Positions 4,018 through 21,469 of a stretch of DNA of 21,975 nucleotides are shown one piece after another (position 1 is the first letter of the stretch; every line of letters starts with the position of its first letter). The notes under the pieces are model-generated. The model worked only from the letters and a program-made list of their open reading frames with translations. It did no database searches and was not told where the DNA came from. The stretch is from Methanomethylovorans sp. (GTDB taxonomy: Archaea > Halobacteriota > Methanosarcinia > Methanosarcinales > Methanosarcinaceae), in NCBI GenBank assembly GCA_020854785.1, contig JAHFZE010000048.1, forward strand, positions 1 to 21,975, read 5' to 3'. The position numbers were made by a program, and so were the translations under genes.

Positions 4018-4068
4018 CCTTCGGGCCTGTCGCAAGGTAAGGAAGCCTCTTTAGGCATTGCCGGGAAA

Positions 4069-4098: not shown

Positions 4099-4111
4099 GT
4101 TGCATTGAAGG

Positions 4112-4140: not shown

Positions 4141-4162
4141 TTGAGTCCAAGGGGGCTGCGGT

Positions 4163-4507: not shown

Positions 4508-4525
4508 GATCTGGGGGTAATTAAA

Positions 4526-5702: not shown

Positions 5703-5720
5703 TTTAAAAACCTTATAGCC

Positions 5721-5749
5721 AGTAGGGGTCTCCGCTTTTGACTAAACGG
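5721..5749 (-). repeat. REP-like repeat (degenerate, shortened)
   Basis: AGTAGGGGTCTCCGCTTTTG then ACTAAACGG aligns with the REP at 21843-21870 (AGGGGTC...CACTTTTGACTAAATGG) if about five bases of the centre are deleted. Confidence 0.4.
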
Positions 5750-5828
5750 TTTCCCCTCGGAGTTCCTGCTAAGAGCAGTGGCCCAAAGGGACGGGGGAAA
5801 TCTTGATAGGCAGGGGCTTAAACCCGAA

Positions 5829-5859
5829 TTGTCAAATGTGTAGGTCTGACACCATTGAG
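5829..5859 (+). repeat. REP-like repeat
   Basis: TTGTCAAATGTGTAGGTCTG followed by ACACCATTG. It has the TGTCA and TGACA arms and the GTAG core of the family bracketing the RAYT gene at 8032-8979. It lies between the chaperone gene and the methyltransferase-nuclease gene. Confidence 0.85.
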
Positions 5860-5907
5860 GGGTCCCTCCTCCGATTTAAGATTCCCGATTCACGGGGTCT
5901 TAGGTCC

Positions 5908-5952
5908 CTTCACCGCAGTGGGCGCAGAGGGTGGGGCCCCGCAGAGAAAACC
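5908..5952 (+). repeat. Dispersed repeat R1, copy 6 (partial)
   Basis: CTTCACCGCAGTGGGCGCAG through GCCCCGCAGAGAAAACC, equal to the front two thirds of R1. The GTGAGAA end is missing. Confidence 0.7.
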
Positions 5953-6103
5953 TGGATATTTTTGCGGGTTTAAAAACCAGTCACGAGTTACGGTTCTTTG
6001 CACCACAGGGGACGCAGACAAGGTCCCGGAGTTTCTGCGGGAGGAGTGCAAACAGAGGAAATCTTTTTTGGGAAAAACAAGGCAGCAGGAGGCGGTTAAG
6101 GCA

Positions 6104-7795
6104 GTGGATAGAGGTCTGGATCTTCAAACCCGGAAATACTATTCTGAAAACGCTTCCGACGTTGCCAGGCGTTACGCATCCGTCTCCGGTGGAATAGACT
6201 CATGGTTCGACGTTGCCTTCCCAAAAGGTTCCCAGGTCCTCGATGTCGGCTGCGCCGCGGGACGTGATGTGCTGCTGCTCCTCAAAGGGGGATGGGATGC
6301 CTACGGTGTGGATCCCTGCGCCGAACTGATCGACGAAGACCTCCGCACGGAACCTGCCCTTAAAGGCCGCCTCTCCTGCGATGCCATCCCCGAACTGCAA
6401 TCAATTCCCGATCAAAGTTTTGAAGGCGTTCTCTGTTCTGCCGTCCTTATGCACCTGCCGGAAGAAACGCTCTTTGACGCTGTGTTCGGCCTCAGGAGGG
6501 TGCTGAAGCCAGGCGGCAGGCTCCTGGTATCGCTTCCACTGGATACCAATGGAAGCCCCGTCAACGGGCGTGATCAAAAGGGAAGATTCTTCAACGGCCT
6601 TTCCCCCGATAGACTTGAACTCCTTTTGTCCCGCCTCGGCTTTACATGTATCGGCAGAGGGGAGAATGCTGATACTCTCGGGCGTGATGATCGGAAGTGG
6701 GTTGTGCTCCTGTTTGCTCTGGGAACTGATGGGGCTGAGCGAAGCATCGACCGTATCGAATCTGTGCTCAACCGCGACCACAAGGTCGCCACCTACAAAC
6801 TCGCTCTCTTCCGCGCGTTGGCCGAGATTGGCATGACCCAGTACAACCGAGCAAAATGGCTCGCCGACGGCCGGGTCGCCGTGCCAATAAATGTTGTTGC
6901 CGAAAAATGGCTCGAATACTACTGGCCGATAGTATCCTGCGGGACATTCATCCCCCAGATCAACGGAGAGAAGCCCTCATCGCCAAAACCCATAGCCTTC
7001 CGGCGCCTTATGCGGGATCTTGCGGAGAGGTTCCGACCCAGGGGAGGACTTGCCGGATTCCTGATCGCGAAAAGATCGGGGAAACTCGACAAGGAAGAAA
7101 AAAACCTCTACGGCCAGCTTATGGGCAAACTCATCAACACGATCCGGGTCGGCCCCGTCAGATATTCAGGTGGCGGAGGAACTTCCCTGCAGATCTTCAG
7201 TTACGAACCCTCCAGCGGATGCATCCTCATGGAAAGAGGCATTTGGCAGGAGTTCTGCCTTATGGGAGCCTGGGTAAGGGATGCAACGATCCTGCGCTGG
7301 GCCGAACTGACAGAAAGACTCTCGAGAAATGAGGTAGCAGCAGGCAGGGTGATCGGACTGCTCATAGAAGACCCGCTTCCGGAAAGAGAGGTCTCCGACG
7401 CCAGGGATCTTTTCAGGAAAGCGGAGATAACCGAAAGCGTCTGGAGCGGAGCTCCTCTTGCGAAAAGGAACTTCGACGTGGACCACGCCATCCCTTTTTC
7501 CCTCTGGCGCTGCAACGACCTATGGAACCTCTTCCCCGTAAACAGCAGTGAAAACAGGAACAAAAAAGACAAACTCCCGAGCCGGAGGCTGATCCTGGGT
7601 CGAAAAAGGGCCATCCGCCAGACTTGGGAGAAAACCTTCGAAGCGTTTCCTGTCCGTTTCAGAACGGAAGCCGCTTCCTTCTCAGGGGCGACGATAACCG
7701 ATGATCCCCGCTGGCCGGATATTCTCTTCTCCCTCTTCGCCGAGGCCGTTGAAGTAACGGCCATCCAGAGAGGAGCCGAGAGGTGGGAGCCGTAG
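6104..7795 (+). CDS. Fused SAM methyltransferase and HNH nuclease
   Basis: A 563-residue protein from GTG 6104 (AGGAGG at 6087-6092). Residues 1-~190 form a class I SAM methyltransferase: VLDVGCAAGRDVLLLL at 45-60 is motif I, GVDPCAELI the acidic loop, and FEGVLCSAVLMHLPEE plus LRRVLKPGGRLLVSLP later motifs. A middle region (~220-440) of unknown fold contains KVATYKLALFRALAEI and WLEYYWPI. The C-terminus holds an HNH-type site: FDVDHAIPFSLW (Asp460-His461), then NDLWNLFPVN (Asn475) and ENRNKKDKLPS. The methyltransferase half resembles small-molecule or lipid types rather than a DNA methylase, because no DPPY/NPPY motif is seen. The role is probably in defence or restriction. The frame is open upstream to 5855, but that part is repeat-derived, so I excluded it. 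Confidence 0.78.
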   Translation: MDRGLDLQTRKYYSENASDVARRYASVSGGIDSWFDVAFPKGSQVLDVGCAAGRDVLLLLKGGWDAYGVDPCAELIDEDLRTEPALKGRLSCDAIPELQSIPDQSFEGVLCSAVLMHLPEETLFDAVFGLRRVLKPGGRLLVSLPLDTNGSPVNGRDQKGRFFNGLSPDRLELLLSRLGFTCIGRGENADTLGRDDRKWVVLLFALGTDGAERSIDRIESVLNRDHKVATYKLALFRALAEIGMTQYNRAKWLADGRVAVPINVVAEKWLEYYWPIVSCGTFIPQINGEKPSSPKPIAFRRLMRDLAERFRPRGGLAGFLIAKRSGKLDKEEKNLYGQLMGKLINTIRVGPVRYSGGGGTSLQIFSYEPSSGCILMERGIWQEFCLMGAWVRDATILRWAELTERLSRNEVAAGRVIGLLIEDPLPEREVSDARDLFRKAEITESVWSGAPLAKRNFDVDHAIPFSLWRCNDLWNLFPVNSSENRNKKDKLPSRRLILGRKRAIRQTWEKTFEAFPVRFRTEAASFSGATITDDPRWPDILFSLFAEAVEVTAIQRGAERWEP

Positions 7796-7901
7796 GTCAC
7801 TGAGGCCACCTCTTCATGTCTTGAATTGCAAAAAAGATAGCTTCGTGTGAAATAGTCGACTCAAATTTGTTTTAACGAGGGTCACTTGATCAATTTTTCC
7901 T

Positions 7902-7938
7902 GGAGGCCTGTTAGATCAGTTGTTTATTTAAGGCCTCC
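7902..7938. repeat. 8-bp inverted repeat beside the RAYT element
   Basis: GGAGGCCT (7902-7909) and AGGCCTCC (7931-7938) are perfect complements around a 21-base AT-rich loop, immediately before the REP at 7937. No T-run follows on the + strand, so it is not a clear terminator. It may belong to the RAYT unit. Confidence 0.45.
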
Positions 7939-7967
7939 CATAGGTGTCAGACCTACACATTTGACAA
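7937..7967 (-). repeat. REP-like repeat, left flank of the RAYT gene
   Basis: TCCCATAGGTGTCAGACCTA followed by CACATTTGACA. It is inverted relative to the copy at 8965-8991, so the two bracket the transposase gene. The arms TGTCA and TGACA flank a 12-base loop containing CTAC (GTAG on the other strand). Its last six bases, TTGACA, are also a perfect -35 box pointing toward the transposase gene. Confidence 0.88.
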
Positions 7968-8000
7968 AACAGTCTTTTCCGTGAAAAATGAGTCCTGATG

Positions 8001-8017
8001 CCTGCGGAGCACGCAGG
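8001..8017 (+). repeat. Hairpin just upstream of the RAYT gene
   Basis: CCTGCG (8001-8006) and CGCAGG (8012-8017) form a 6-bp GC-rich stem with loop GAGCA, ending 14 bases before the start codon. It could be a transposase recognition foldback or reduce translation of the transposase. Confidence 0.45.
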
Positions 8018-8031
8018 AAACGGGGGGTGGA

Positions 8032-8979
8032 ATGATGAGCAGGCCGTTGAGGATAGAGTTTCCCGGAGCCTTTTATCATGTCACGTCGAGAGGGAACGAG
8101 CAGAAGGATATTTTCAAGAGCGAGGCCGACCGGGAGAAGTTCCTGACCTACCTGGGATCGGCTGCGGAGAGATACGGGGCAGTGTTCCACGCCTGGTGCC
8201 TTATGACCAACCACTATCACCTGATGATCGAAACCCCCGAAGGCAACCTTTCCAGAATCATGAAACACATCAACAACTCCTACACGAACTACTACAACAT
8301 CAAGAGGAAAAGAGCAGGCCATCTCCTGCAGGGGCGATATAAGGCGATCCTGATCGAGGCCGACGCCTATGCCGCAGAATTGTCCCGCTACATACACCTG
8401 AACCCCGTCAAGGCAAAGATGGTCCCCTCGCCTGAAGAGTACATGTGGAGCAGTTACCGGTTCTATGCTGAGGAAAATGGACCGTCGTGGCTTTCGACCG
8501 GTTTTGTTCTGGGTTATTTCGGAACTGAACAAGGCGAGCAGAGGAGAAATTACAGAACCTATGTCATGGAGGCTGTCGGGAGAAAGTGTCCTGATCCTCT
8601 GGCTGGTTCGATCGCTTCGACCATTCTCGGGAGCGAGGATTTTGTCAGGGACATCAGGGAAAAGTACCTGGAAGGGAAGGGATCCGACAGGGATGTCCCC
8701 GCACTTCGCGAACTGACCCTGAGGCCCGATATCGCGAAGATCAGGGAAGGGGCAGAGAAGGCTTTTCCCGAAAACGGCAGGCTGGCAAGATCTTCAGGGA
8801 TCTATCTTTGTCATCGTTTCAGCGGGGCAAGGCTGAAGGAGATCGGAGACCTCTACGGTATTTCGCTATCTGGAGTGACCCAGGCGGCCAGGCGGTTCGA
8901 AGAGGCGATGAAAAAGGACAGAGGACTGGAGAAGAGGGTCCTTGAAATAGCCGGGAAACAAGGTTTGTCAATTGTGTAG
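8032..8979 (+). CDS. REP-associated tyrosine transposase (RAYT, Y1/HUH family)
   Basis: A 315-residue protein. The first ~135 residues are a Y1 transposase domain. They show RPLRIEFPGAFYHVTSRGNE at the start, the HUH metal site as CLMTNHYHLMIETP (His61, His63), a catalytic-tyrosine helix NNSYTNYYN (one of Tyr84, Tyr87 or Tyr88), then GHLLQGRYKA and YIHLNPVKAKMV. A C-terminal helix-turn-helix-like part follows (RFSGARLKEIGDLYGISLSG), as in longer RAYTs. GGGGGG at 8022-8027 is the ribosome site; ATG 8035 is equally possible. REP copies bracket the gene in inverted orientation, and the last codons and TAG stop lie inside the right-hand REP. RAYTs cut and join single-stranded REP sequences and are thought to disperse them. 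Confidence 0.92.
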   Translation: MMSRPLRIEFPGAFYHVTSRGNEQKDIFKSEADREKFLTYLGSAAERYGAVFHAWCLMTNHYHLMIETPEGNLSRIMKHINNSYTNYYNIKRKRAGHLLQGRYKAILIEADAYAAELSRYIHLNPVKAKMVPSPEEYMWSSYRFYAEENGPSWLSTGFVLGYFGTEQGEQRRNYRTYVMEAVGRKCPDPLAGSIASTILGSEDFVRDIREKYLEGKGSDRDVPALRELTLRPDIAKIREGAEKAFPENGRLARSSGIYLCHRFSGARLKEIGDLYGISLSGVTQAARRFEEAMKKDRGLEKRVLEIAGKQGLSIV

Positions 8980-8991
8980 GTCTGACACCTC
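8965..8991 (+). repeat. REP-like repeat, right flank of the RAYT gene
   Basis: TTGTCAATTGTGTAGGTCTG then ACACCTC. The TAG of its GTAG core is the stop codon of the transposase gene (8977-8979), so gene and repeat are physically fused. Confidence 0.85.
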
Positions 8992-9045
8992 TAGACCCTA
9001 GGGCCTGTTGCAAGAGAAGCGGTCCCTGTAGGGTTCCCATAAAAT

Positions 9046-9075
9046 AGTCAAATGCGTAGGTTTGACCCCTATGGG
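9046..9075 (+). repeat. REP-like repeat
   Basis: AGTCAAATGCGTAGGTTTGA followed by CCCCTATGGG. This subtype ends TTTGACCCCTATGGG rather than CTGACACC. It lies about 55 bp past the right RAYT-flanking copy, in the same orientation. Confidence 0.8.
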
Positions 9076-9136
9076 CTGTTCTCTGGTTCCTCCCGTTCAC
9101 CGTTGACCGCTCACTGTTTACGCATTTAGGTCTTTA

Positions 9137-9178
9137 ATGACCGGAATGCAATCTGGGTTTATGATTAGAGGGCAAAAC
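9137..9178 (+). repeat. Repeat R3, copy 3
   Basis: ATGACCGGAATGCAATCTGG, then GTTTATGATTAGAGGGCAAAACC, matching 2192-2233 and 3798-3839. No coding relic follows it here. Confidence 0.6.
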
Positions 9179-9270
9179 CGTTGCCATTGTGGTTGGCGGA
9201 AGGGTTATGGAAGAGAAAGGGTCGGAATCATTGGCGGAGGAAGGGTCAAAAAGATTCGACAAAAACCAGA

Positions 9271-9300
9271 TTTTGTAAATTGTGTAGGTCTGCCGGCTTT
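9271..9300 (+). repeat. REP-like repeat (degenerate)
   Basis: TTTTGTAAATTGTGTAGGTC followed by TGCCGGC keeps the GTAG core and left arm remnants; the right arm is lost. Confidence 0.45.
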
Positions 9301-9383
9301 GGGGCTTTTCCCTTGTATCCGACAACTGACTTCTTGCTCTGTCTGATTGGTTTGGACAAACTTTAATTTGGGTAACAGCCTGC

Positions 9384-9403
9384 CTAGGTTTGACCCCTAT
9401 GGG
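9384..9403 (+). repeat. REP-like half repeat
   Basis: CTAGGTTTGACCCCTATGGG equals the right half of the 9046-9075 subtype. It sits 39 bp upstream of the first gene of the AT-rich operon and marks that operon's left boundary. Confidence 0.55.
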
Positions 9404-9442
9404 AATCGTTTTGACTTTAAAAAAAATTTATGAGGTTTTTTT

Positions 9443-10850
9443 ATGAGTGAAATTGAAGAAACAAAGATGGAAAAATTTGATGGGGTTCTGAGAACGCTTA
9501 GCGCCCCTGCTTTTCGTGCTCTTTTGAAAATTGGAGTGCGCGATTTTGATTCATTTGTAAAAACTAATCTTGTAAATAGATTGTTGGGTTGTTGCTCACC
9601 CACTCACATTTTTGAACTTACTGAAGCACAAAAAAAAATTATCGATCAGTTCGAAAAAAATCTTCGTGTCAGTGGAAAAAAGATTACCTCCTTAAAAGAT
9701 CAACAAAAGATCTTTGGAATTTTCCCCGCAATAACTCCTGTAGTCAGAAAAGCCTCTTTGGGGAAGGGGAAAAAAGTCGAAGAAAATAAAAAAATTTCAA
9801 TTAAATATATGAAAGCACACCCGGAAGACATGATTTATTATGAAATACCACCCAATAACAGTATTTTAAGGAAAACCATTCCCGATTTGATTTATGACCG
9901 AAAAAAAGTAGAAGAAATTTGGAGAATTGTTGATTCAAAAAACTTGGTATTAAAAGATTTTCTTTTGTTGTCGTCCGATCAATGGGAGGGACTGCAAAAA
10001 GACAGCGTTTTCCAAGATGATCCGGCTGAAGTTCTTTTGGCTTTTTGTCTTGGTTTTTGGATCAGAAAAAAGCAAGAACAATCCATTCTTACCGTAATAA
10101 TCGATGCTTTAAATTCTTTATTCCCCCAAAAAGAGAGTGGAATGGTTAAAAAAACCCTGGATATTGCATTATGTGAACCCTTCCTTAATGAACAGGAAGT
10201 TAAACCTATTGGAAATTTCCGCTTGGATTCTTTTGGTTTGCCCGAGTCACTAATTTCAACCTGTAAAAAAAACAATATTTTTTATTGGAAAGAACTAGCA
10301 GTCATCTCAGAGAAGGACATCATTGAAAAAGAAGGCATAAATATAAGATCTTTCGAAAAGATTGCGCTTTTTTGGGATCTAACAACCTTCCTTGGCAAAT
10401 CGCTAAATGAAATTGGTTCATGGGAAGAAAGAAATTTTGCAAACTATCAAATAATGGTTAATAATTTTTTGGAATCAATTCTGGATAAACCAAGAGATAG
10501 AGACATTATTTCTGCCAGGATGGGGCTTAGGGATGGTGAAAGCAAAACACTTGAGGAGGTTGGAAAACAATTTGGGATTACAAGAGAAAGAGTAAGGCAA
10601 ATTGAAAAGAAATCTCTGCAAAAAATTAAACACAAAAAGAATGTGGAAACACTTAATTTGCTTTGGTTTTCGATAACAAATCATCTTAAAGATGTCAGAG
10701 GAGTTTGTGGTTTTGATGATTTGGCTAAACAAATCACAGAACAATTTCAGTGGCCTCAAGAACCCCCACCCGCGGCACTTGCTACGCTAGCAACTTTCAG
10801 CCCAAGAATAGAGCTAAGAAAGGAGAATAACCTTCTTATTGATACGGATA
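9443..10850 (+). pseudogene. Sigma-factor-like / helix-hairpin-helix protein of the defence operon, 5' part (interrupted by IS21)
   Basis: The first 469 codons of a gene cut by the IS at 10851; the frame runs into the IS and stops at 10948. Residues 15-45 (LRTLSAPAFRALLKIGVRDF) resemble the helix-hairpin-helix of the RNA polymerase alpha C-terminal domain, and 259-310 (FRLDSFGLPESLISTC...) look like a second one. Residues ~345-397 are a sigma-70 region 4-like helix-turn-helix: RDIISARMGL, TLEEVGKQFGITRERVRQIE. Neither a sigma region 2 nor a catalytic motif is seen. It probably binds DNA or contacts RNA polymerase, perhaps sensing or regulating for the operon. Joined to the 3' part at 13549, it gives a 1047-codon gene. 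Base composition is clearly more AT-rich than the DNA to the left. Confidence 0.8.
10845..10850 (+). repeat. Target-site duplication, left copy (CGGATA)
   Basis: CGGATA directly precedes the IS start TGCG at 10851 and is repeated after the IS end at 13543-13548. Six bases is within the usual 4-8 bp range for IS21-family insertions. Confidence 0.85.
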
Positions 10851-11042
10851 TGCGTTTTTCGGAGCAACTCGGCCAGGGTTTCGGAGCAACTCGGCCACCC
10901 TGTCGGAGTAATTCGGCCAGCTTGACGGAGCAACTCGGCCACCCTTAGGTTGGTCGGGGAGGAGGAGTTTGCTCCCATTGGGGATCAGGAACAGCGCCGG
11001 GCAATCCAAAGCCATAAAATCGCATTTACGGGGGGTGATTTT

Positions 11043-12620
11043 ATGGCTAACAGGAGGTTGCCTGTGCGAAAGATAAAAGAAATTCTACGCATGAAACATG
11101 TCTGCTCTCTTTCCAAGCGGGAGATAGCGCAAAGCTGCAATGTCCCGAGGAGCACCGTCGGCGACTACCTCAGGAGGGCAAGGGCGGCAGGGCTGGATTG
11201 GTCCGAAGCTTCGAGACTCACCGACACCGAACTTGAATCCCGTCTTTTTCCCACGGAACATTTGCCGAGCTCGGTCCACCGTCCGCCGCCTGACTGCGCC
11301 TACATCCATGATGAGCTTCAGACCCACCGCAAGGTAAACCTCACTCTGACCCAAATGTGGCTGGAGTACAAAGAGCAGCACCCTGACGGCTATCAATATA
11401 CACAGTTTTGCGAATACTATCGCCGCTGGCGCGGCAAGCTGGATTACTGCATGCGCATCACCCACACAGCCGGAGAGAAAGTCTTCGTCGACTACTGCGA
11501 CGGTCTGGCTATCGTCGATCCAGTCAGCGGCGAGCAAATTCCAACTCAACTCTTCATAGCCGTATGGGGAGCTTCCAATTATACATATGCCGAGGCAACC
11601 CTCTCCCAGACACTGCCTGACTGGATAGGATCTCATGTGAGGGCCTTCCGCTATTTCGGCTGCGTACCCAGGTTGCTGGTGCCGGACAATCTCAAGAGCG
11701 GGGTACAGGATCCGTGTTTTTATGAAGCGGAGCCGAATCGCACCTATGCAGAGATGGCCGGGCATTATGGCTGCGCCATTCTGCCGGCTCGACCAGGTCA
11801 CCCCAGAGACAAGGCCAAAGTCGAGGCAGGAGCACTTATAGCTCAGAGGTGGATACTGGCTGTATTGCGCCACCGGACCTTCTACAGTCTGGAGGAGCTG
11901 AATATGGCCATCCGGGAGCTTCTGGAAAGCCTCAACTCCCGTTTACTGCGCCGCTTGGGCAAGTCGCGCAGGGAGCTGTTTGAAACCGTAGACACACCCA
12001 ACGCTCAGTCCCTGCCAGAACGTCCCTACGAATACGCTGAATGGCTCAAGGCAAAGGTCAACATCGATTACCACATAGAGGTCGACCATCACTATTACAG
12101 CGTACCCTTCCAGCTTCTGAGAGAAAGACTCGACATAAGGCTGACCGCCTCCACCGTTGAAGTACTCCGCAAGGGGGAACGTGTGGTTGCCCACGCGAGG
12201 TCTCACGTCAGAGGAACTCATACGACGCTCAAGGACCATATGCCCCCGGAGCACCGCAAATATGCCGAATGGAGTCCATCCCGCTTCATCCAGTGGGCAT
12301 CCAGGACCGGATCCGCCACTGCGGAGCTTGTGGAAAAGATTATGGCCTCACGCACATATCCTGAGCAGGGGTATCGCGCCTGCCTGGGAATAATGCGGCT
12401 GGGCAGGCATTACGAACCGGAGAGGCTTGAAGCGGCGGCCCAGAGAGCTCTCAAATTCAACACCTGTTCCTACAAGTCGGTACGGGCCATCCTGTCGGCT
12501 GGTCTCGATCTCCAGGCAGTCGAGGAAGAAGTTCTCACCCAGGCGAGCCTGCCGGTGCACGGCAACATCAGGGGCAAGGAGTACTACACGAATTTCAAAC
12601 AGGAGGAAGATCATGCTTGA
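11043..12620 (+). CDS. istA: IS21-family transposase IstA
   Basis: A 525-residue DDE transposase. The N-terminal helix-turn-helix is visible as KIKEILRMKH and LSKREIAQSCNVPRSTVGDY. The catalytic core follows: KVFVDYCDGLAIVDP (first Asp), RLLVPDNLKSGV (second Asp) and ARPGHPRDKAKVEAG (Glu). The C-terminal part contains the IstA-typical VNIDYHIEVDHHYYSVPF. I chose ATG 11043, with GGGGGGTGA 6 bases upstream; the frame is open back to 10950, but that would start in the terminal repeats. IstA cuts the IS ends and joins them to target DNA, working with IstB. Confidence 0.93.
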   Translation: MANRRLPVRKIKEILRMKHVCSLSKREIAQSCNVPRSTVGDYLRRARAAGLDWSEASRLTDTELESRLFPTEHLPSSVHRPPPDCAYIHDELQTHRKVNLTLTQMWLEYKEQHPDGYQYTQFCEYYRRWRGKLDYCMRITHTAGEKVFVDYCDGLAIVDPVSGEQIPTQLFIAVWGASNYTYAEATLSQTLPDWIGSHVRAFRYFGCVPRLLVPDNLKSGVQDPCFYEAEPNRTYAEMAGHYGCAILPARPGHPRDKAKVEAGALIAQRWILAVLRHRTFYSLEELNMAIRELLESLNSRLLRRLGKSRRELFETVDTPNAQSLPERPYEYAEWLKAKVNIDYHIEVDHHYYSVPFQLLRERLDIRLTASTVEVLRKGERVVAHARSHVRGTHTTLKDHMPPEHRKYAEWSPSRFIQWASRTGSATAELVEKIMASRTYPEQGYRACLGIMRLGRHYEPERLEAAAQRALKFNTCSYKSVRAILSAGLDLQAVEEEVLTQASLPVHGNIRGKEYYTNFKQEEDHA

Positions 12621-13386
12621 CGAACAGACCATAGCAACTCTCAACGCAATGAAACTCTTGGGCATGGCAAAAGGCCTTGAAGAGCGACTCAACACACCCG
12701 CTCACGCGGAACTCTCCCACGCTGAGTTTGTTGGATTTCTGGTTCAGGACGAGAAGCTTTACCGCGACAACCAGCGGCTCAAACGCCTGCTCAAGAATGC
12801 CAGGCTCCGCCAGGCCGCATCTCTGGAGGACATCGACTTTCGTCATCCACGCGGTTTGAACAGGCAGGTGATGCTGGAGCTTTCCAGCACCCGCTGGATT
12901 GATGCACACCGCAATGTACTCCTCACCGGCCCGACGGGTATAGGCAAATCCTATCTGGCCTGCGCCCTGGGCAATTTCGCAGCCCGGAACGGCTATACGG
13001 TTCTTTATATGCGAGCACCCAGGCTCTTTGAAAGTCTCCAGCAAAGCCGGGGAGACGGTTCGCACATGAAAACCCTCTCCAGGTTGGCGAAGGTGCATCT
13101 GCTCATTATTGACGACTTCCTGCTCAATCCTCTCGGGGATATCGAGCGTCGAGATCTGCTGGAAATAGTTGAGGATCGTTACCAGGCAGGATCCACAATA
13201 ATAACCAGTCAATGTCCCATAAATGACTGGCATCCGAATATCGGCGACCCGACCCTCGCCGACGCCATATGCGACAGGTTGTTCCACAACACCTTCAAGA
13301 TAGACCTCAGAGGAGATTCCATGCGCAAGGGCAAGAAGGAATCCGAACCGATTCCGACTGAGAAGCAGAGAAAAGGCAAAGAGTAA
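12613..13386 (+). CDS. istB: IS21-family AAA+ helper ATPase IstB
   Basis: A 257-residue AAA+ ATPase. Walker A is LLTGPTGIGKSYLACALG, Walker B is LLIIDDFLL, and a sensor-like TIITSQCPINDWH follows. The N-terminal helical region (MKLLGMAKGLEERL...) is typical of IstB. ATG 12613 has AGGAGGAAG just upstream and overlaps the istA stop by 8 bp, so the two are translationally coupled. IstB selects the target site and stimulates IstA. Confidence 0.94.
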   Translation: MLDEQTIATLNAMKLLGMAKGLEERLNTPAHAELSHAEFVGFLVQDEKLYRDNQRLKRLLKNARLRQAASLEDIDFRHPRGLNRQVMLELSSTRWIDAHRNVLLTGPTGIGKSYLACALGNFAARNGYTVLYMRAPRLFESLQQSRGDGSHMKTLSRLAKVHLLIIDDFLLNPLGDIERRDLLEIVEDRYQAGSTIITSQCPINDWHPNIGDPTLADAICDRLFHNTFKIDLRGDSMRKGKKESEPIPTEKQRKGKE

Positions 13387-13542
13387 AGAGGAAGGGGGTA
13401 GAAAAAGGGGAAATTGTCATTGAAATAACCTTGAGCTAAACTGAATCAAGCTCGACGCTGTTCACCCGAATAGGTGGCCGAATTCACCGTGCCGCTGGCC
13501 GAGTTGAACCGGGACCGGTGGCCGAGTTCGCCGAAACCGGCA

Positions 13543-13548
13543 CGGATA
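13543..13548 (+). repeat. Target-site duplication, right copy (CGGATA)
   Basis: Second copy of the 10845-10850 duplication, immediately after the IS end CCGGCA. Confidence 0.85.
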
Positions 13549-15284
13549 TGCTATGCCCCAAATGCGAACTAGTTAGGTATACCTTAGAAAATGAAATCAA
13601 AGAGAACAAAATCGAGCTAACTTTTGAAGATGCACGCCAGGTCATCAATAGAACCTGTTCTCAGGAACAAGGATGTAGGGTAATGGTTGAACATACGAAA
13701 TGCTCAGATGCCTTTATTTTAAAAATAATTTTTGATTCTGATTACCTCAAGACAAAAGATAAAATTATTTATTCTGATGAAATATGGAGTGGAAGATGGG
13801 GTTCAAAAGCTCAAATGACAGAAAAAATTTTGAAAGAATTTGGAAGGCCTGTTCATTTTCGAGAAGTCTTTTTGAAGCTAAAGAAATTATACCCTGCAGA
13901 TGAATCTATTTCTGAGCGTAATGTGCATGCTTATTTAACAAGAGAGAATTCTAATGTTTTGCTTTGGGACAGAGGAGCCTTTGTTCATAAGGATTTCGTA
14001 GAGATTGATTTTAGTTTTATCAAAGAAATTGAAGAGTTTCTGTTAAGCAAACTTCCAAATGGAATTCCATTTGTTTCGGTAGCAGGGATATTTAAAGAAT
14101 TTAATGATGAATGTCTTAATAATGGAATACCCTCTGAAACCGCTCTTTATACATGTCTCAGACTATCAGCAAATCCAGAATTACTGTTGCCAAAATATCC
14201 ACAAATATATTTATCCCGAAATTTTGAATCGCGGATTCCCAATAATGTAGCCATAGAACAATATATAGAGGATTACGGTGGTTTCATTTCGTTATCAGAA
14301 TTGAAGAGCTATGTTTTGGATTCGCTGATGCTAAAAGATTTTCAATACCAACAAATTTTGTCCGGTTTCTCAGATAACTTCTATATTGGAAGCAAGGGCA
14401 TCATCGCAAAGAAAAACTTTGAAATTGATCCAGAGAAAATAAAGGAAATTTATTTATACCTCCATACTTTTGTTTGCAAAAACGGTAATGTCTCTATAGA
14501 AAAAATTTTTTATGACAAACGTGTTACTTGTATTAGTTTAGGTATAAAAGATCCAAAGTTTCTATACAACGTTCTTAAATCAGAGGCTAAAGGATTATCT
14601 TTTGACAATTACCCGGCAGTTCGTTGGATCGAAGAGGGAAAAACTACATCCGAAATAACAATATCCGATCAGGTAGAAAGGTTTTTGGAAAACAAAAAAA
14701 CGCCCTGTTCTTTCGAAGAACTTGAAGAAACCTTTATCGGAAAATATGGCTATAATGAAAACACCCTTTATGCAGCACTCCAGAAAGAAAACATACTCAG
14801 GTATGGTCAAGGCTCTCTTATTCATATTAATTCCATCGAGTGGACAGATCTAAAAAAAGAATCATTAATTAATCAGGCGAGAAATTGTCTGGATCAAGCT
14901 AATAGAATCAATAGGAGGTATGGCTTGATAAGCGAATTAATAGAATATGACGATCTACCCCCACTCCCGGAGGGTATTTTAAGGACAAAAACACTTCTTG
15001 GAGAAATGCTAGGTTTTACCAATGAATTTAAAGTTCTGGGTAGTGCCAAGAACGCCTTTGTATCCAAATATAACGAAGAAGGAATTAAAGTATTTGAAGA
15101 CCTCGTTTACCTCATCCTAGCAAAAGATTTCGGCGGGGCTGAAAACCTCAAAGTGCTTGGGGAAATGCTTAAAGAAATGCAGATTATTCAAAACCAGTTA
15201 ACCTCAAGCATGCTTGGGGAACAAAAGAAGGTTGTGGTATACGGAGATGTTGTTATATTAAGAGAGTTGGTTCAGAATGCTTAA
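13549..15284 (+). pseudogene. Sigma-factor-like protein of the defence operon, 3' part (winged-helix repeats)
   Basis: The remaining 578 codons of the gene split by the IS. In the restored protein it begins near Met470 with MLCPKCELVRYTLENE, giving a Cys472-x2-Cys475 pair. Several winged-helix-like (HARE-HTH type) units follow. The clearest is at ~553-620: MTEKILKEFGRPVHFREVF, then ERNVHAYLTRE and LLWDRGAFVHK. Weaker ones centre on IEEFLLSKLPNGIPF, IEQYIEDYGGFISLSEL and VERFLENKKTPCSFEELEE with LYAALQKENILRYGQGSLIHI. The frame is open from a GTG at 13518 inside the IS end, so a chimeric protein lacking the sigma-like half might still be made. Its last 8 bases overlap the helicase gene. Confidence 0.78.
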
Positions 15285-17403
15285 AGACCTGGATTTACAA
15301 CTGGTTTATGACAGTTCCGAATACGATCTTGTTAAAGATTTACAGGTGCCGTTGCTTAAGCACTCAAATTTTTATTTGAGGGGTGTAGGTTTTTTTTCTT
15401 CTGGATGGCTAGGAATAGCTTCTTCAGGGATAGCAAGCCTGGCTTTAAATGGGGGGAAGGCCCAGATAATAATGTCCCCCGTTTTATCCAAAAAAGACTG
15501 GGAAGCGCTTCAATTCGGGCAAGAAGCCAAATTAGATGAAGCCCTAAAATCTTTGCTAGCAACAAGGATTGAGGATCTAAAAACTTCCTTGGAAACAGAT
15601 ACCTTGAATGCACTCGCATGGTTAATTGCTGACGGGTTGCTGGAAATAAGGTTTGCCATTCCTCGGCAAATAGGTTATCCAGGTAACTACCACGACAAGG
15701 TGGGAGCGTTTAGGGATGAATATGGCGATTCTGTTGTAATCCACGGATCTTTGAATGACTCCATTCAGGGCTCGCTCAACGGAGAAGCTTTTTCGGTTTT
15801 TAGATCGTGGAAAGAAGGTCAGGAGCCATATTTACGCAAGCATTTTTCCAGGTTGGAAAGCCTTTGGAATGATGGTAATCAACAATTCAGGGTACATCAG
15901 TTACCAGATGCAATTCGTGAGAAGATGGTTGAAATGAGGTCATCAAAAGGAAGGCCCTACCCAATTTCTTCCAAGAATGTTGAAGAAGTGCCTCCCATTA
16001 AACTCTCTGTTCCCCTTGCATTACACCCCTATCAAGAACAAGCTATTGATTCCTGGAAAAAAGCAGGTCATAGGGGTATTTTTGAAATGGCTACCGGTAC
16101 TGGGAAAACAATTACATCTTTGGCGGCGGCTGTTGATGTTTACCAAGAGAATGGGAGAATTGCTCTAATAATATTGGTACCATATAAGCATTTGTTGGAT
16201 CAATGGTCGAAAAACGTTATTGAGTTTGGTTTTAACCCAATCCTATGCAGCGGGGATCATGGGAAATGGCAAATAGAAGTTAAATCTAAAATTCAGGATC
16301 TTAATATTGGAGCTATCCAGAATATTTGTATTATCGCTGTCCAAATGACTGCAGCATCTGAACGTTTCCAAGAGTCAATAGAGAAACTGAATCCATCTTA
16401 CACAATGATTATTGGAGACGAGGTCCACTATCTGGGAGCCAATTATTTGAGGAAAGCATTAACCGAAAAGGCCAAACAAAGATTGGGTTTATCCGCTACG
16501 CCAAGAAGATGGTTCGACCATGAGGGAACTAGCAGCATTTTTGATTATTTCGGGGATGTTTGTTTCGAATATCCCCTCGAAAAGGCAATCGGGACTTATC
16601 TAACGCCATATAAGTATTTCCCAAATCTTATTGAATTGACAAACGAGGAAATCCAGGAATTTGCAGTCTTAACACAGAAAATTATACAAATGAGTCATGT
16701 CAATAATTTGGACGATTCTAAATCCGATGGATTAAAAATCGTATTACAAAAACGTTCCATGATCATTTCATCTGCTCATAACAAGATGCGGGTTTTACTG
16801 GAGTTGCTTAAAAAAACGAGAGATGACGATTCACTAAAAGGGAAACCCACGAAAGATATTCTAATCTATTGTGCCCCTGGCAAACATAAAGCTGTTTTAA
16901 AAGAAGTTGCCAAACTGGGATTCAAGGCTCATGAATTCGTCCATGATGTGAATCTTCATGACAGGGAAAAAGTCCTTGGACAATTTAAAGAGGGAGAAAT
17001 ACAAGTACTTGTTGCAATTCGATGCCTTGATGAAGGGGTAGATGTTCCGTCAACAAAAACTGTGTTTATTATGTCAAGCACTACTAACCCTAGGCAGTTT
17101 ATTCAGAGGCGCGGTAGAATCTTACGGATGTCAGAAGGAAAAACATTTGCAGTTATTCATGATTTTTTTGTTGCTCCTAGCTTGGACCAGCAGGAAAACT
17201 TCCGAGAAATGTCAAAAACCATCTTGAAAAGAGAAATGCCCAGATTTGTGGAGTTTGCGTCTTCTTCCTTGAATGAATTTGAAGCCAGGGCTGAAATTTG
17301 GGATACTTTGAAGAGGATGGGGATGATTCATCTTTTGAATGAAAAGCCTTGGGAAATTTTCCATACCTTAGGTGAAGAGGAGAAAGAAATTAATGCCAAC
17401 TAA
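15277..17403 (+). CDS. PLD-like nuclease fused to XPB/Ssl2-like superfamily 2 helicase
   Basis: A 708-residue protein. Residues ~1-220 form a phospholipase D-like domain: YHDKVGAFRDEYG (His139, Lys141) followed by VIHGSLNDS is a single HKD-like site. The helicase core follows: PYQEQAIDSW, Walker A MATGTGKTITS (Lys277), ILVPYKHLLDQW, the DExH box GDEVHYL (Asp381-Glu382-Val-His384), LGLSATPRRW, and motif VI QFIQRRGRILRMSEG (Gln610 to Arg614). The plan resembles restriction helicase-nucleases of defence islands. It starts 8 bp inside the previous gene and its end overlaps the next gene by 11 bp. Its likely role is ATP-driven translocation and cleavage of unmodified or foreign DNA. Confidence 0.9.
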   Translation: MLKDLDLQLVYDSSEYDLVKDLQVPLLKHSNFYLRGVGFFSSGWLGIASSGIASLALNGGKAQIIMSPVLSKKDWEALQFGQEAKLDEALKSLLATRIEDLKTSLETDTLNALAWLIADGLLEIRFAIPRQIGYPGNYHDKVGAFRDEYGDSVVIHGSLNDSIQGSLNGEAFSVFRSWKEGQEPYLRKHFSRLESLWNDGNQQFRVHQLPDAIREKMVEMRSSKGRPYPISSKNVEEVPPIKLSVPLALHPYQEQAIDSWKKAGHRGIFEMATGTGKTITSLAAAVDVYQENGRIALIILVPYKHLLDQWSKNVIEFGFNPILCSGDHGKWQIEVKSKIQDLNIGAIQNICIIAVQMTAASERFQESIEKLNPSYTMIIGDEVHYLGANYLRKALTEKAKQRLGLSATPRRWFDHEGTSSIFDYFGDVCFEYPLEKAIGTYLTPYKYFPNLIELTNEEIQEFAVLTQKIIQMSHVNNLDDSKSDGLKIVLQKRSMIISSAHNKMRVLLELLKKTRDDDSLKGKPTKDILIYCAPGKHKAVLKEVAKLGFKAHEFVHDVNLHDREKVLGQFKEGEIQVLVAIRCLDEGVDVPSTKTVFIMSSTTNPRQFIQRRGRILRMSEGKTFAVIHDFFVAPSLDQQENFREMSKTILKREMPRFVEFASSSLNEFEARAEIWDTLKRMGMIHLLNEKPWEIFHTLGEEEKEINAN

Positions 17404-17601
17404 CAAAACCTATAAAGAGTCAAGTATTAACAAGATGATTGTCCAGAAGTTGAAAGAATTTCCTGAAGATGTTGCAGAATTGTCTATAGTTGCTGTTATT
17501 TTGTCCGAAAAATATCCAGAAATGACAGTTTTTGAACAGCTGGAAGCATTAGTGCGCGAGATAACAAAGAAAAGAGGGAATTTCGTTGATATTGCATAAA
17601 C
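17393..17601 (+). CDS. Small hypothetical protein of the defence operon
   Basis: A 68-residue, mostly helical protein (NKMIVQKLKEFPEDVAELSI, then EKYPEMTVFEQLEALVREIT). I prefer ATG 17393, with GAGGAG at 17376-17381 upstream, over an in-frame start at 17372; either overlaps the helicase gene end. Its 3' end overlaps the start of the ATPase gene, so it is held between helicase and ATPase by coupled translation. I do not recognise a family. The coding frame ends with the TAA at about 17597-17599. Confidence 0.6.
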
Positions 17602-19631
17602 TGACCCTTTTTAATTTTAGACAATTCAAAGGTGTTCAAGATATTACCTTTGCTGCCCCTTCGGAAACTCAGAAAAAAAACATCTCCATTTTTTTTGGAC
17701 AGAATGGGCGAGGTAAAACAGGAATCTTCAGGGCTATTGTGTTCTGTCTTTTTGGAGTTAAACGTCTCTCTCAAGACGGAGATGTTCCAGAATCTGAGAT
17801 CCAACTAGTCAATACAAATGTTTTAGGAAAATCACAAGGCGCGACAGTTGAGGCATTCGTTGAATTATTTTTTTCACATGAAGGAGTTAAATATTGTCTC
17901 AAACGATCAATCATTGGATTAATTAAAGACGGTGATGTGATTGAAGAAATGGGAAGCGTCAAACTCTCATCAACCAAATCAGATGGCAATACGAAAGTAA
18001 TTGATAAACATGATATTGACTCGTTGGTAGAAAAAATAATTAACCCTCGAGTCAAAGATTACTTTTTTTTCGACGGCGAGACAATAGAGCGCCTGACGAG
18101 GGCAAGTGTTGAGCAGAGAAAGGAGATATCCAAAGGAATCAGAAACCTTTTGTATGTTGATGCTCTTGAAACAGCGATTAAAGCCACAGCAAGGCTTACC
18201 CGGAAATTGGAATCAGAAATGCGAGAACATTCTACCCCTGAGTTGGCAAGACTTCTGAAAGAACTTAAGGACAATGAAGATAAAGAAAAAGAGAAAAAAG
18301 AACGTTTAGATAAGGTTGCTGAAGAACTAAGAATTGCAAATTGGCAATTGAAGGATATTGACAAAGAACTCGAAAAATTTAAAGCCATACATCATCTCCT
18401 TGAAGAAAGGAAAAGATTGGAGGAAACATTAAAAAATTTTCAAAATGACTCCAAGAATCTTCTATCCGAAATGAAAACTGGTTCCGCTAAGATGGCGATT
18501 CAATTGGTTGGCACAAATTTGGAAAATGTTTTTCATAAGATAGATAATCTGAAAAAAAGAGGAGATATACCATCAGAAATCCGCAAAGATTTGGTCGAGA
18601 AAATCTTGAATGAACACTGGTGTTGTGTTTGTGACAGAGCTGTTGATAAAGGATCTGATGCAGAGAAAAAGGTACTGGAATGGCTTCACAAAGCTACAGA
18701 TATTGCATTACAGGATTCGGCTTTGGATTTGTGGAGATATTTAAGTGATGTAATAAACCGTTTTTCTGATGATGGTACCCAGATTGAAAATATGCTCCTG
18801 TCTTATGGAAATCTTCGAAATAAGATAGATAATGCAAGAATGAAATTGCAAAAAATATCAGATCAAATAGGTGAGGGAGATTTTGGAAATGTTCCAGTAC
18901 TTGAGCAGGCCAGAGGAGAATTAAAAGAAAAAATATTAAAACTTGAGGCAGAAGATTTAGTAATCACCAACGAAATCAACGTGTTACTGGAAGAGAGAAA
19001 ATTGCTTTTCGAAAAAATCGAAAAAGAGAAGCAGATACAAGATAAGGGTAAAGAGGTAATCAAAAGAGCAAACCTTGCAAGAAAATCTTCAGAAGCGTTA
19101 ACCGCTGTTTACGAGGGATTTACTCAGGAAATTAAACACTTGATCAGTGAAAAAGCTACACTTTTCCTAAAGAGGTTTTTGGATTCTGAAGGTCAAGAGG
19201 CGATTAGAAAGGTTTTAGTAAAGGATGATTATTCCCTCCAAGTTTTGGATCGCTGGGAGAGGCCCTTTTTGGCAAACATTTCCGCTGGGCAAAGACAGAT
19301 AATGTCTATAGCATTTATTGTAGCCCTGGCTGAAGTGGCAGCTCAGGATAAACTTCTTGAAATGCCCTTGTTCATGGATACTCCTTTAGGTCGCTTGTCT
19401 GGAGGTCACAGGGCAAATCTAATTAGTTTTTTGCCGCAGTTTTCGTCTCAGTGGATTCTATTGGTTACTGATACCGAGTTTACAAAGACAGAGGCAAGGT
19501 TGTTTAAAAGTTCTCCGAACTGGGGAAATTTTTTTGTTCTTGATCCAGATGGACAGGGTAATACTGAAATACATGAGAAAAACATCGAAAACTATATAAC
19601 GTTATTGAATGATGAAGGTGAAGAGGAATGA
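17586..19631 (+). CDS. DndD-like SMC/ABC ATPase
   Basis: A 681-residue ATPase starting at TTG 17586, with GAGGGAA (17573-17579) upstream. The N-terminus is MILHKLTLFNFRQFKG with Walker A FFGQNGRGKTG (Lys44). Two long coiled-coil stretches (about 205-300 and 430-510) flank a hook EHWCCVCDRA (Cys346-x2-Cys349), as in Rad50/DndD. The C-terminal head has the signature NISAGQRQIMSIAFI (~564), Walker B PLFMDTPLGRLSGGHR (Asp598) and the DndD-like ending QWILLVTDTEF. In phosphorothioation systems DndD provides ATPase and DNA-nicking support for sulfur insertion. Here no DndC-like PAPS reductase is nearby, so the partner chemistry must differ. It overlaps both neighbours. Confidence 0.86.
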   Translation: MILHKLTLFNFRQFKGVQDITFAAPSETQKKNISIFFGQNGRGKTGIFRAIVFCLFGVKRLSQDGDVPESEIQLVNTNVLGKSQGATVEAFVELFFSHEGVKYCLKRSIIGLIKDGDVIEEMGSVKLSSTKSDGNTKVIDKHDIDSLVEKIINPRVKDYFFFDGETIERLTRASVEQRKEISKGIRNLLYVDALETAIKATARLTRKLESEMREHSTPELARLLKELKDNEDKEKEKKERLDKVAEELRIANWQLKDIDKELEKFKAIHHLLEERKRLEETLKNFQNDSKNLLSEMKTGSAKMAIQLVGTNLENVFHKIDNLKKRGDIPSEIRKDLVEKILNEHWCCVCDRAVDKGSDAEKKVLEWLHKATDIALQDSALDLWRYLSDVINRFSDDGTQIENMLLSYGNLRNKIDNARMKLQKISDQIGEGDFGNVPVLEQARGELKEKILKLEAEDLVITNEINVLLEERKLLFEKIEKEKQIQDKGKEVIKRANLARKSSEALTAVYEGFTQEIKHLISEKATLFLKRFLDSEGQEAIRKVLVKDDYSLQVLDRWERPFLANISAGQRQIMSIAFIVALAEVAAQDKLLEMPLFMDTPLGRLSGGHRANLISFLPQFSSQWILLVTDTEFTKTEARLFKSSPNWGNFFVLDPDGQGNTEIHEKNIENYITLLNDEGEEE

Positions 19632-20092
19632 AAATGGATGGAGAGATCAGAGTAAAAACAGAGGGGAAATACGGCTCTCTTTATAACGATTTAAAAAACC
19701 TAGTTGTGGGGGATTTTCACGAAATATTTTTTGTTTGTGCGTGCCTTGGGATCAAAAATAAACAAACTAAAGCATTAGGTAAAGATAAGGAAGACAGGTT
19801 CTGGTCTAAAACAATAAACCCACGCGAATGGGCTTGTTATTACGCAGCTGTGCTTGAAGAAAATAACATGGATTTTAATTCTATTCAGGATGACAAAAGA
19901 GTTATTTCAAGGATAGAAGAGTATGCAAATGGAGGGATGGAATTATTAATAGATGTTTTTTTGAAGGATTATTTGCTGCATAGTTCAAACGGTTTTCAAC
20001 TAGACCCCGGGGTTAGCCAAGAGATATCAAAAGAATTTCTTCATTTTATTTTTGAACAGGTAGATTTAACTACCCAAACAATTGATTCATGA
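19628..20092 (+). CDS. Small helical protein of the defence operon (possible Dnd-accessory type)
   Basis: A 154-residue, predominantly helical protein. The visible pattern is YNDLKNLVVGDFHEIFFVCA, CLGIKNKQTKAL, a middle helix REWACYYAAVLEEN, and ISRIEEYANGGMELLIDVFL. It begins with ATGA overlapping the ATPase stop (an alternative ATG at 19634 is in frame) and ends with ATGA overlapping the radical SAM gene. The EEYANGG motif and size remind me of small accessory proteins annotated beside Dnd systems, but I cannot confirm that. It holds the place DndE holds after DndD, though it does not look like DndE in sequence. Confidence 0.6.
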   Translation: MKMDGEIRVKTEGKYGSLYNDLKNLVVGDFHEIFFVCACLGIKNKQTKALGKDKEDRFWSKTINPREWACYYAAVLEENNMDFNSIQDDKRVISRIEEYANGGMELLIDVFLKDYLLHSSNGFQLDPGVSQEISKEFLHFIFEQVDLTTQTIDS

Positions 20093-21435
20093 GAAGTATT
20101 CTACTAGTTGAGCCAGGCTACAAAAATAAGTACCCTCCGCTGGGCTTAATGAAAATTTCAACCTATCATAAGTTGAAGGGAGATTTTGTTCAGTTTGCGA
20201 AGGGTTGCATAAAAGAATTTCAGGAAGAAAAGTGGGACCGAATATATATCAGTACTCTTTTTACTTTTCACTGGGACATTACAATAAAAACAATAGATTT
20301 CTTTTCTAATTCTATTGCTCCAAACGGAAAGATAATTGTAGGTGGGGTGATGGCAACCCTACTCAGAAAAGATCTTGAAAAAGCAACGGGAGTTACCGTA
20401 ATTCCTGGACTGATTGATCAACCAGGCATTCTGGATGCTGGGGATAGGATGATAGTAGATTCGCTGACCCCGGATTATAATCTTCTTGAGATGACAGATT
20501 ACAAATATGGATTGAATGATTCTTACATAGGATACGCCACCAGAGGTTGTCCGAATAAATGTGATTTCTGTGCAGTAAGAAAAATAGAACCCCTTTTTAA
20601 AAACTACCTTCCTTTGAAAAAACAAATCCAATCAATTGAGATGGTTTATGGCCCTAAACAGCATTTGGTTTTGATGGATAATAACGTCTTAGCATCCAAT
20701 TGTTTTGAAAGAATAATCGAGGACATTTGTGATCTTGGATTTTCTAAAGGGGCTAGATTTAGAAATAAGAACAGGTTTGTTGATTTTAACCAGGGAATTG
20801 ACTTACGGCTTTTAAATGGAGACAAAATGCGTCTGCTATCAAGGATTGCGATAAAACCGCTTAGGTTAGCCTTTGATCATATTGAGTTAAAAGATGAATA
20901 TATTGACCGGGTTAACATGGCAGTAAGACATGGAGTGAGAAACCTGTCGAATTATGTTCTTTATAACTATAAAGACACGCCAGAGGACTTTTACGAAAGA
21001 CTTAGAATCAATGTTGAGTTGAATGAAAAGTTAGGAACACAGATCTACTCATTTCCGATGAAGTATATACCCCTTGATGCCAAAGATAGGACCTATATCG
21101 GTAATAATTGGAGCAAAAGACTTATTAGAGGAGTCCAATGTATTCTTCTGGCAACTAAGGGCTCAGTTGGAACCCACAAGGATTTTTTTGAAGCTGCGTT
21201 CGGGCGTACACCCGAAGAGTTTATAGAAATTGCCATGATGCCTGAGGAATATATTATATTTAGGAATAGCCATATTGAAAACGGAGATGCCGACAAGTGG
21301 AAAAGAAAGTTTCGGTCTATGAATGCACAGCAGAGGAGAGAATTTATAAGGCATGCAAGTAAGTGCTCTTTTAAAAATAGGGAATCTATAGATCATGAGT
21401 TATTAGAGTATTTGAGAGTATCGAATTTATCTTAA
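20089..21435 (+). CDS. Radical SAM enzyme of the defence operon
   Basis: A 448-residue protein. Residues 1-~140 look like a B12-binding-like Rossmann domain (ILLVEPGYKNKYPPLGLMKI, IYISTLFTFHWD, KIIVGGVMATLL). The radical SAM cluster motif is RGCPNKCDFCAVRKIEP (Cys154-x3-Cys158-x2-Cys161). Downstream are strongly patterned blocks: LVLMDNNVLAS, FVDFNQGIDLRLL, LRLAFDHIELKDEY, LSNYVLYNYKDTPEDFYERL, YSFPMKYIPL and a C-terminal MMPEEYIIFR. No DxHxxG cobalamin-binding motif is seen, so B12 use is doubtful. ATG 20089 overlaps the previous stop by 4 bp. Fused into an operon with a DndD-like ATPase and a helicase-nuclease, its substrate may be DNA. It could instead make a nucleotide or act on RNA or protein. 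Confidence 0.85.
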   Translation: MRSILLVEPGYKNKYPPLGLMKISTYHKLKGDFVQFAKGCIKEFQEEKWDRIYISTLFTFHWDITIKTIDFFSNSIAPNGKIIVGGVMATLLRKDLEKATGVTVIPGLIDQPGILDAGDRMIVDSLTPDYNLLEMTDYKYGLNDSYIGYATRGCPNKCDFCAVRKIEPLFKNYLPLKKQIQSIEMVYGPKQHLVLMDNNVLASNCFERIIEDICDLGFSKGARFRNKNRFVDFNQGIDLRLLNGDKMRLLSRIAIKPLRLAFDHIELKDEYIDRVNMAVRHGVRNLSNYVLYNYKDTPEDFYERLRINVELNEKLGTQIYSFPMKYIPLDAKDRTYIGNNWSKRLIRGVQCILLATKGSVGTHKDFFEAAFGRTPEEFIEIAMMPEEYIIFRNSHIENGDADKWKRKFRSMNAQQRREFIRHASKCSFKNRESIDHELLEYLRVSNLS

Positions 21436-21446: not shown

Positions 21447-21469
21447 TGCCGGTTTCGGCGAACTCGGCC
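21447..21469 (+). mobile_element. Orphan IS21-type terminus
   Basis: These 23 bases (TGCCGGTTTCGGCGAACTCG, then GCC) are identical to the reverse complement of the right end of the IS at 10851-13542 (13520-13542). Similarity stops right after, so only a solo terminus remains, 12 bp past the operon's last stop codon. The body would have extended to the right. Confidence 0.75.

Follow-up and report, generated by a model that had tools for sequence, protein, structure and literature searches.

A PbeABCD antiviral locus from Methanomethylovorans with a radical SAM gene as candidate modification component

Introduction

Which gene, if any, supplies the modification in an antiviral operon of the PbeABCD type that is not accompanied by DndC? 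The question is raised by a stretch of 21,975 nucleotides assigned to Methanomethylovorans sp. (contig JAHFZE010000048.1, assembly GCA_020854785.1; the whole stretch is hereafter called the window). Here six plus-strand genes at 9443..21435 encode a sigma-like DNA-binding protein, PbeA, PbeB, PbeC, PbeD and a radical S-adenosylmethionine enzyme (rSAM), the first gene being split by an insertion sequence (IS) of the IS21 family. We favour, with moderate confidence, the reading that this is a PbeABCD anti-virus system with a sigma-like fifth component, whose modification slot is filled by the B12-type rSAM; the swap of the modification module at Pbe loci is probably real. The core is known and the sigma-like gene recurrent, and the system is categorically new only if a DNA mark is shown.

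Results

The four genes at 15277-20092 constitute a complete PbeABCD system, and their order, A-B-C-D, is the published one. PbeA (15277..17403), an HKD phosphodiesterase domain fused to a superfamily 2 (SF2) helicase, scored 747 bits against the PADLOC PbeA model and 464 bits against TIGR04095, below the cut-off of 600, and carries the HxK...D...GSxN residues. PbeC (17586..19631) is a DndD-like ABC ATPase with a Walker A motif and a CxC-type hook (CCVC); it scored 545 bits with the PADLOC PbeC model, the best DndD model giving 195, and an identity as DndD was rejected because the PbeC models scored far higher. Between them lies the PbeB-like gene (17393..17599; 68 amino acids from the ATG at 17393), which matched no family model and was assigned by position and size; weak phmmer relatives (25-47 bits) occupied the same place in six loci. 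PbeD (19628..20092) was recognized by its fold of two strand-helix-helix units, the DndE-like double ribbon-helix-helix feature of PbeABCD and CxC-DndE systems, while comparison with DndE by hhalign and a Foldseek search returned nothing or weak matches.

Adjoining genes overlapped by 8 bp (second piece of the sigma-like gene and PbeA, 15277-15284), 11 bp (PbeA and PbeB, from the PbeB ATG at 17393, read by eye, to the PbeA end at 17403), 14 bp (PbeB and PbeC, 17586-17599), 4 bp (PbeC and PbeD, 19628-19631) and again 4 bp (PbeD and rSAM, 20089-20092). The open reading frames (ORFs), their order and the overlaps of 4-14 bp claimed in the original prediction, which had been made from the letters of the window, were thus confirmed, and the following motifs were found: Sigma70_r4, helix-hairpin-helix (by the alpha-CTD model, in relatives), HKD, Walker A, hook and CxxxCxxC. 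The order PbeA, PbeC, PbeD, rSAM was repeated in seven other distinct loci near to that of the window (L009, L010, L012, L013, L014, L016, L018), two of which hold merely the end of PbeA on their contig, so the arrangement is more than chance. The complete six-gene neighbourhood, whose co-occurrence the prediction had proposed as a check, was found again in loci such as L014, L016 and L018.

The same prediction had called the operon undescribed. This did not survive for the middle genes, which match the PADLOC PbeA and PbeC models and the order and sizes of PbeABCD as published (Xiong 2019, PMC6459918; Rakesh 2024, PMC10853773). A wholly new six-gene system was therefore rejected; the core fits a named model, which does not include the sigma-like and rSAM genes. 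The window shares with DndCDEA-PbeABCD (PMC6459918) the order of PbeA, B, C and D, similar sizes and the PbeA/PbeC models, but differs in having an rSAM and no DndC, either at the locus or in the 76.5%-complete assembly, and in the extra sigma-like gene, which is outside the four-gene cassette as named. With the CxC ABC ATPase-DndE systems (PMC10853773) it shares the CxC hook, a DndE-fold partner, an HKD-SF2 helicase and a small protein, whereas the main text of that paper links such systems to phosphorothioate (PT) genes or methylases; both mentions of 'radical SAM' there fall in one introduction passage, on DndC. The ATPase and a small protein had also been placed in a modification arm. This assignment is not supported: in reported experiments dndCDEA by itself was enough to give a new host PT marks, and virus resistance required pbeB, pbeC and pbeD, and partly pbeA (PMC6459918). 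Viral DNA was not cleaved in that study; cleavage has been argued from the HKD domain (PMC10853773).

To compare the rSAM with other modification genes, we tabulated 54 Pbe loci: 31 from PbeA genome searches (30 archaeal and one from a second phylum), 11 plasmid records taken from 26 with a match, and 12 reached via the rSAM, including the window. The rSAM was present in 15, DndC in 14, a DNA methyltransferase in 15 (one of them weak: L170, 48 bits), Ssp in 2 and none of these in 8, three of which lie on truncated contigs (L156, L177, L183). No locus had two kinds of modification gene. One of DndC, Ssp and DNA methyltransferase was thus detected in 0/15 rSAM loci and 31/39 others (Fisher p 5.7e-8, ignoring kinship). 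For the 30 archaeal loci selected on PbeA alone the figures were 0/3 and 22/27 (p 0.014); in the three (L161, L167, L172) a distant rSAM lies close to PbeAC, together with GHKL or DGQHR genes. Genome-wide, DndC occurred in 13 of the 30 archaeal Pbe genomes and in 0/12 genomes where Pbe adjoins the rSAM (p 0.0077); the 30 include the three with a distant rSAM, none of which has DndC. A Ruegeria plasmid carries the same five-gene core with dndCDEA in the rSAM's stead.

In the control loci, seven of eight methyltransferase candidates tested matched N6_N4_Mtase by Pfam, and the eighth (L166) matched DUF1156 alone, weakly. A motif scan of the 15 Pbe-rSAM loci, the L011 copy included, revealed no plausible DNA methyltransferase; the loose motif was present in three ORFs, one without a Pfam match and the others being rSAM and GHKL genes. 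The same scan of the window gave no match. Family scans of the window detected neither DndC nor its partners, and a search of the source assembly (76.5% complete) for DndC found nothing at E 1e-30, the best weak match reaching 34 bits against a cut-off of 290. In the second phylum, PbeA was found in 3/297 genomes, two of them already in the set; the third (L154) had neither rSAM nor DndC in the available stretch. On two plasmids (L188, L194) the Pbe genes adjoin Ssp-type genes, namely a cysteine desulfurase, a DUF4007 protein, a large ATP-binding protein and a member of the PAPS reductase family; Pbe may pair with Ssp too.

The rSAM (20089..21435) exhibits the features of the radical SAM superfamily, a CxxxCxxC cluster motif (C154, C158, C161), invariant across 37 rSAM sequences, and a barrel fold, together with a putative N-terminal B12-binding-like Rossmann domain. 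Its score with Pfam Radical_SAM was 18.7 bits, below the cut-off of 29.5. The fold resembles that of B12-dependent radical SAM enzymes; identity to MgmA, TsrM, OxsB and CysS was 10-17%, with no profile match to a solved sequence, and the window rSAM differs from them in its defence gene context; sequence searches of PDB returned one row at E 0.72 in one search, and a profile search none. In MiaB and RimO methylthiotransferases a second cluster is bound by three conserved cysteines of the N-terminal part. A MiaB-type methylthiotransferase was rejected, since beyond C154, C158 and C161 no cysteine was even nearly invariant in the 37 sequences. The rSAM family is large, as all 8000 best-sharing candidates scored passed E 0.001, giving at least 8000 relatives. 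At that threshold a strong match was found in 0/5 genomes of the same genus. ORFs of the family from Bacillota (L048, L051, L064, L080) are 677-807 amino acids long; in L064 and L080, the two that were scanned, no Pfam domain matched the additional C-terminal portion. A protein of the phage Marinitoga camini virus 1 (L216, 7001-8083) has 36% identity to the rSAM and adjoins an annotated HerA helicase and single-stranded exonuclease associated with Rad50/Mre11.

The rSAM gene was not confined to Pbe. We assembled 105 distinct rSAM loci (79 genome, 20 viral, 3 plasmid and 3 archaeal Pbe loci), the genome loci coming from the best 80 of 264 relatives and the viral ones from viral contigs; L011, a copy of L010, was left out, and the near-duplicates L055/L090 and L041/L042 remain in the counts. 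By phmmer within 9 kb at E 1e-8, 73 of the 105 were near a recurring gene set: an SNF2 set (31), SNF2 with PIN (2), PIN (1), an unnamed set of two genes, c5-c6 (16), Pbe (14) or a DISARM-like set (9), leaving 32 with none. A GHKL ATPase gene was adjacent on the same strand in 64/105, and a DGQHR (DndB-family) gene was nearby in 18/105; the window operon has neither. Twelve plasmid records had the rSAM gene, and in each of the three examined it was preceded by a DGQHR gene and followed by one for a GHKL-type 'ATP-binding protein'. Two of these plasmids are pNL1 of Novosphingobium aromaticivorans DSM 12444, with the gene set PIN-like, ATPase, DGQHR, rSAM, GHKL, and pR132505 of Rhizobium leguminosarum WSM1325. 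GHKL ATPase genes also stand beside SF2 helicases in the MORC/paraMORC restriction systems (Iyer 2008, PMC2292703), from which the window differs in having no GHKL gene; the word 'radical' does not occur in the main text of that paper.

The helicase of the SNF2 set was closest to the ZorD and DpdE models, and the DGQHR protein resembles DpdB; these likenesses to Zorya and Dpd do not extend to the window, where neither protein is present. The SNF2-set protein of about 136-170 amino acids matched no Pfam model. The c5 and c6 proteins matched no Pfam or PADLOC model, so a defence role for this set is a guess. The DISARM-like set has DrmA (594 bits), DrmB (197 bits) and a NERD-helicase. Its nine loci, two of which are the same sequence, resemble DISARM in that the rSAM follows DrmA/DrmB-type genes, but differ from it in the NERD-helicase and in yielding no plausible methyltransferase by motif scan; of two plasmid DrmA loci examined, one had a DNA cytosine methyltransferase. 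No Drm model was among the listed matches of the window's operon ORFs (for two ORFs, the best 25, which were Pbe, DndD and helicase models), DrmA and DrmB not having been searched elsewhere in the window, and membership of the window in DISARM was rejected.

In a tree of 106 rSAM rows, built by a quick method with the Shimodaira-Hasegawa-like approximate likelihood ratio test (SH-aLRT) as the only support, none of the four main sets formed one clade; the minimum number of changes on well-supported branches was 6 for Pbe, 12 for SNF2, 7 for c5-c6 and 3 for DISARM. The set labels were nonetheless clustered, with 0/500 shuffles as low for each set. The window fell in a supported Pbe set of five rows (SH-aLRT 96), the others being named Lentisphaerae, Candidatus Cryosericum, Actinomycetes and Rhodopirellula, mostly metagenome bins. 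These names are unsafe, since one sequence appears both as L010 and as L011, assigned to Candidatus Cryosericum and to an Actinomycetota bin; one of the two is probably misbinned.

The rSAM looks like a modification arm because in the 54 loci it was never seen together with DndC, with Ssp or with any DNA methyltransferase that could be detected, and because it recurs beside other defence-type cores. On this point the support for the original prediction is comparative.

The first gene of the operon is interrupted. Its pieces at 9443..10850 and 13543..15284 flank an IS21-family element (10851..13542) recognized by terminal repeats, by IS21 models (NCBIfam transpos_IS21, 264 bits; Pfam IstB_IS21, 220 bits) and by a 6-bp target duplication on its flanks (10845-10850 and 13543-13548). 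Its bounds and the duplication were read by eye, and within it are the istA (10950-12620) and istB (12427-13386) ORFs. The first ORF extends to 10948 and the second is listed from 13518, in both cases within an IS end, and the two halves are in identical phase at the duplication. The pieces represent one gene, since the intact relatives are single proteins of 934-1308 amino acids. Because the gene is split, the window copy of the operon is probably impaired. A 23-bp exact inverted copy of the right end of the element lies at 21447-21469, 12 bases past the rSAM stop codon, and is possibly the remnant of a second IS21 flanking the operon.

Sigma70_r4 scored 52 bits in the first piece and was found in 7/7 relatives, two of the scores shown lying close to the curated threshold; 5/7 were matched by the RNA polymerase alpha-CTD (helix-hairpin-helix) model (E 0.05 or better). 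The second piece alone matched no family, a suspected HARE-HTH domain finding no Pfam match, but phmmer related it to the long protein encoded upstream in six other Pbe loci (118-303 bits). A true sigma factor was rejected, as region 4 alone matches, in a protein of about 930-1310 amino acids. The gene was present in 11 of the 54 Pbe loci. It precedes PbeA on a Lactiplantibacillus plasmid, with no rSAM within the stretch read, and on the Ruegeria plasmid, with dndCDEA; judged by these sequences, it is a recurrent partner of Pbe independent of the rSAM.

Discussion

Sequence, fold and comparison show which genes these are, their order and recurrence, and that other modification genes are missing where the rSAM occurs. 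DNA as the substrate of the rSAM, the chemistry and the self/non-self logic outlined here are what we infer. PbeC and PbeD would scan DNA for target sites, and the rSAM would mark the host's own sites using its 4Fe-4S cluster, S-adenosylmethionine and perhaps cobalamin. PbeA, acting as helicase-translocase and bearing an HKD nuclease domain, would nick, cut or stall unmarked invading DNA, and PbeB and the sigma-like protein may regulate the system or read sites. The rSAM would thus replace DndCDEA, with the same logic and a different mark.

Three other explanations compete with this scheme. The rSAM may modify a protein or RNA, such as a system partner, tRNA or the ribosome, in the manner of MgmA, MiaB or RimO, and so regulate the system or sense infection. 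We consider this unlikely, though the strongest of the three: the presence of only three invariant cysteines argues against a second cluster of the MiaB/RimO type, and such a role leaves unexplained both the mutual exclusion with DNA modification genes and the company of DndB-family genes. It is less probable still that the enzyme is an effector or signal maker producing a viperin-like antiviral nucleotide or small molecule upon infection, without a DNA mark. Lowest, by a small step, we place the possibility of an ordinary solitary PbeABCD with the rSAM gene as a passenger of defence islands. Solitary PbeAC is common (165/553; PMC6459918) and the rSAM is not fixed in Pbe, but against a passenger stand its 4-bp overlap with PbeD in the window, its place directly after PbeD in seven other distinct loci from five named phyla, and its repeated pairing with other cores.

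Several observations weigh against the rSAM as the modification component of Pbe. Of the 15 rSAM loci, 12 came from searches with the rSAM or are the window itself, and the sample free of this bias is small; L009, L012 and L013 have short flanks; the methyltransferase queries were drawn from control loci, which the motif scans compensate roughly; the compared groups are of unlike composition, with archaea set against mostly bacteria in the genome-wide test for DndC; and the counts and p values ignore phylogeny. The protein at 5855-7795, 1.6 kb upstream of the first gene, combines a Methyltransf_11 domain with a C-terminal HNH_4 nuclease domain; it lacks the scanned motif, was excluded from the DNA methyltransferase count, and may be a defence or modification gene in its own right. 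In the rSAM we identified no conserved DNA-binding domain. At E 1e-60 the rSAM occurred in 5/392 genomes of the window's phylum, of which the window's alone had a strong PbeA match, so that at this threshold the rSAM stands beside PbeA, within the phylum, only in the window; it is rare in Pbe there. Finally, across eight loci the distances of PbeC and PbeD were correlated (rho 0.67, permutation p 0.01), whereas those of PbeC and rSAM (rho 0.12, p 0.23) and of PbeA and rSAM (rho -0.05) were not. Weak PbeC-rSAM co-variation is consistent with a loosely coupled module, and a rho of 0.107 has been reported for DndCD and PbeAC (Xiong 2019, PMC6459918), but it could also be read as weak coupling generally, counter to a dedicated partnership. 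These sampling limits and the weak co-variation lower our confidence in a PbeABCD system with an rSAM in its modification slot to the level given at the outset, and slightly lower that in the broader proposal that follows.

A broader proposal, which we put forward tentatively and rate somewhat below that reading, is that the B12-type rSAM family places on host DNA a self-mark not yet described, which might be a methyl on carbon or backbone or some other product of radical chemistry, as an interchangeable module for at least four cores (Pbe, DrmAB, SNF2-helicase and c5-c6); the module would often work with a GHKL ATPase and sometimes with a DndB-family DGQHR protein. Among titles and abstract openings, a survey that took in neither supplements nor a 2020 ABC-ATPase survey, we found no description of a radical SAM enzyme in Pbe, DISARM, DGQHR or CxC systems. 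If the proposal holds, a further self-marking chemistry would stand beside methylation, phosphorothioation and 7-deazaguanines, one modification would be used by several defence-type systems, and the rSAM could be taken as a hub gene in the search for others. The rSAM is in any case a specific partner candidate for part of the Pbe systems published without a known modification partner (PMC6459918). Should it not write DNA, an exclusion pattern this strong would still want explanation.

Other features of the window

Scans of the window for promoters and terminators gave no signal above shuffles, and Rfam and tRNA scans led nowhere. The G+C content of the operon DNA (9001-21435) minus the IS was 34-44%, that of the DNA on its left (1-9000) 46-56%, and that of sixteen stretches of the same assembly 38-49%; the identity of the operon's host is not certain. 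Upstream genes comprise a toxin-antitoxin-like pair, DUF6088/AbiEi_4 (560-1192) and an AbiEii nucleotidyltransferase (1143-2195), a RhuM-family protein (2356-3408, 391 bits), an MqsA-antitoxin/HTH_3-like protein (4526-5260, both matches below curated cut-offs) and an IS200-like (Y1_Tnp) transposase (8032-8979). Around this transposase and the operon lie 23-bp repeats resembling repetitive extragenic palindromic (REP) elements, near 5830, 7944, 8966, 21565 and 21772. The repeat was found at 12 places in 5/327 contigs of the assembly and may be of use in deciding if these contigs share an origin or were binned wrongly.

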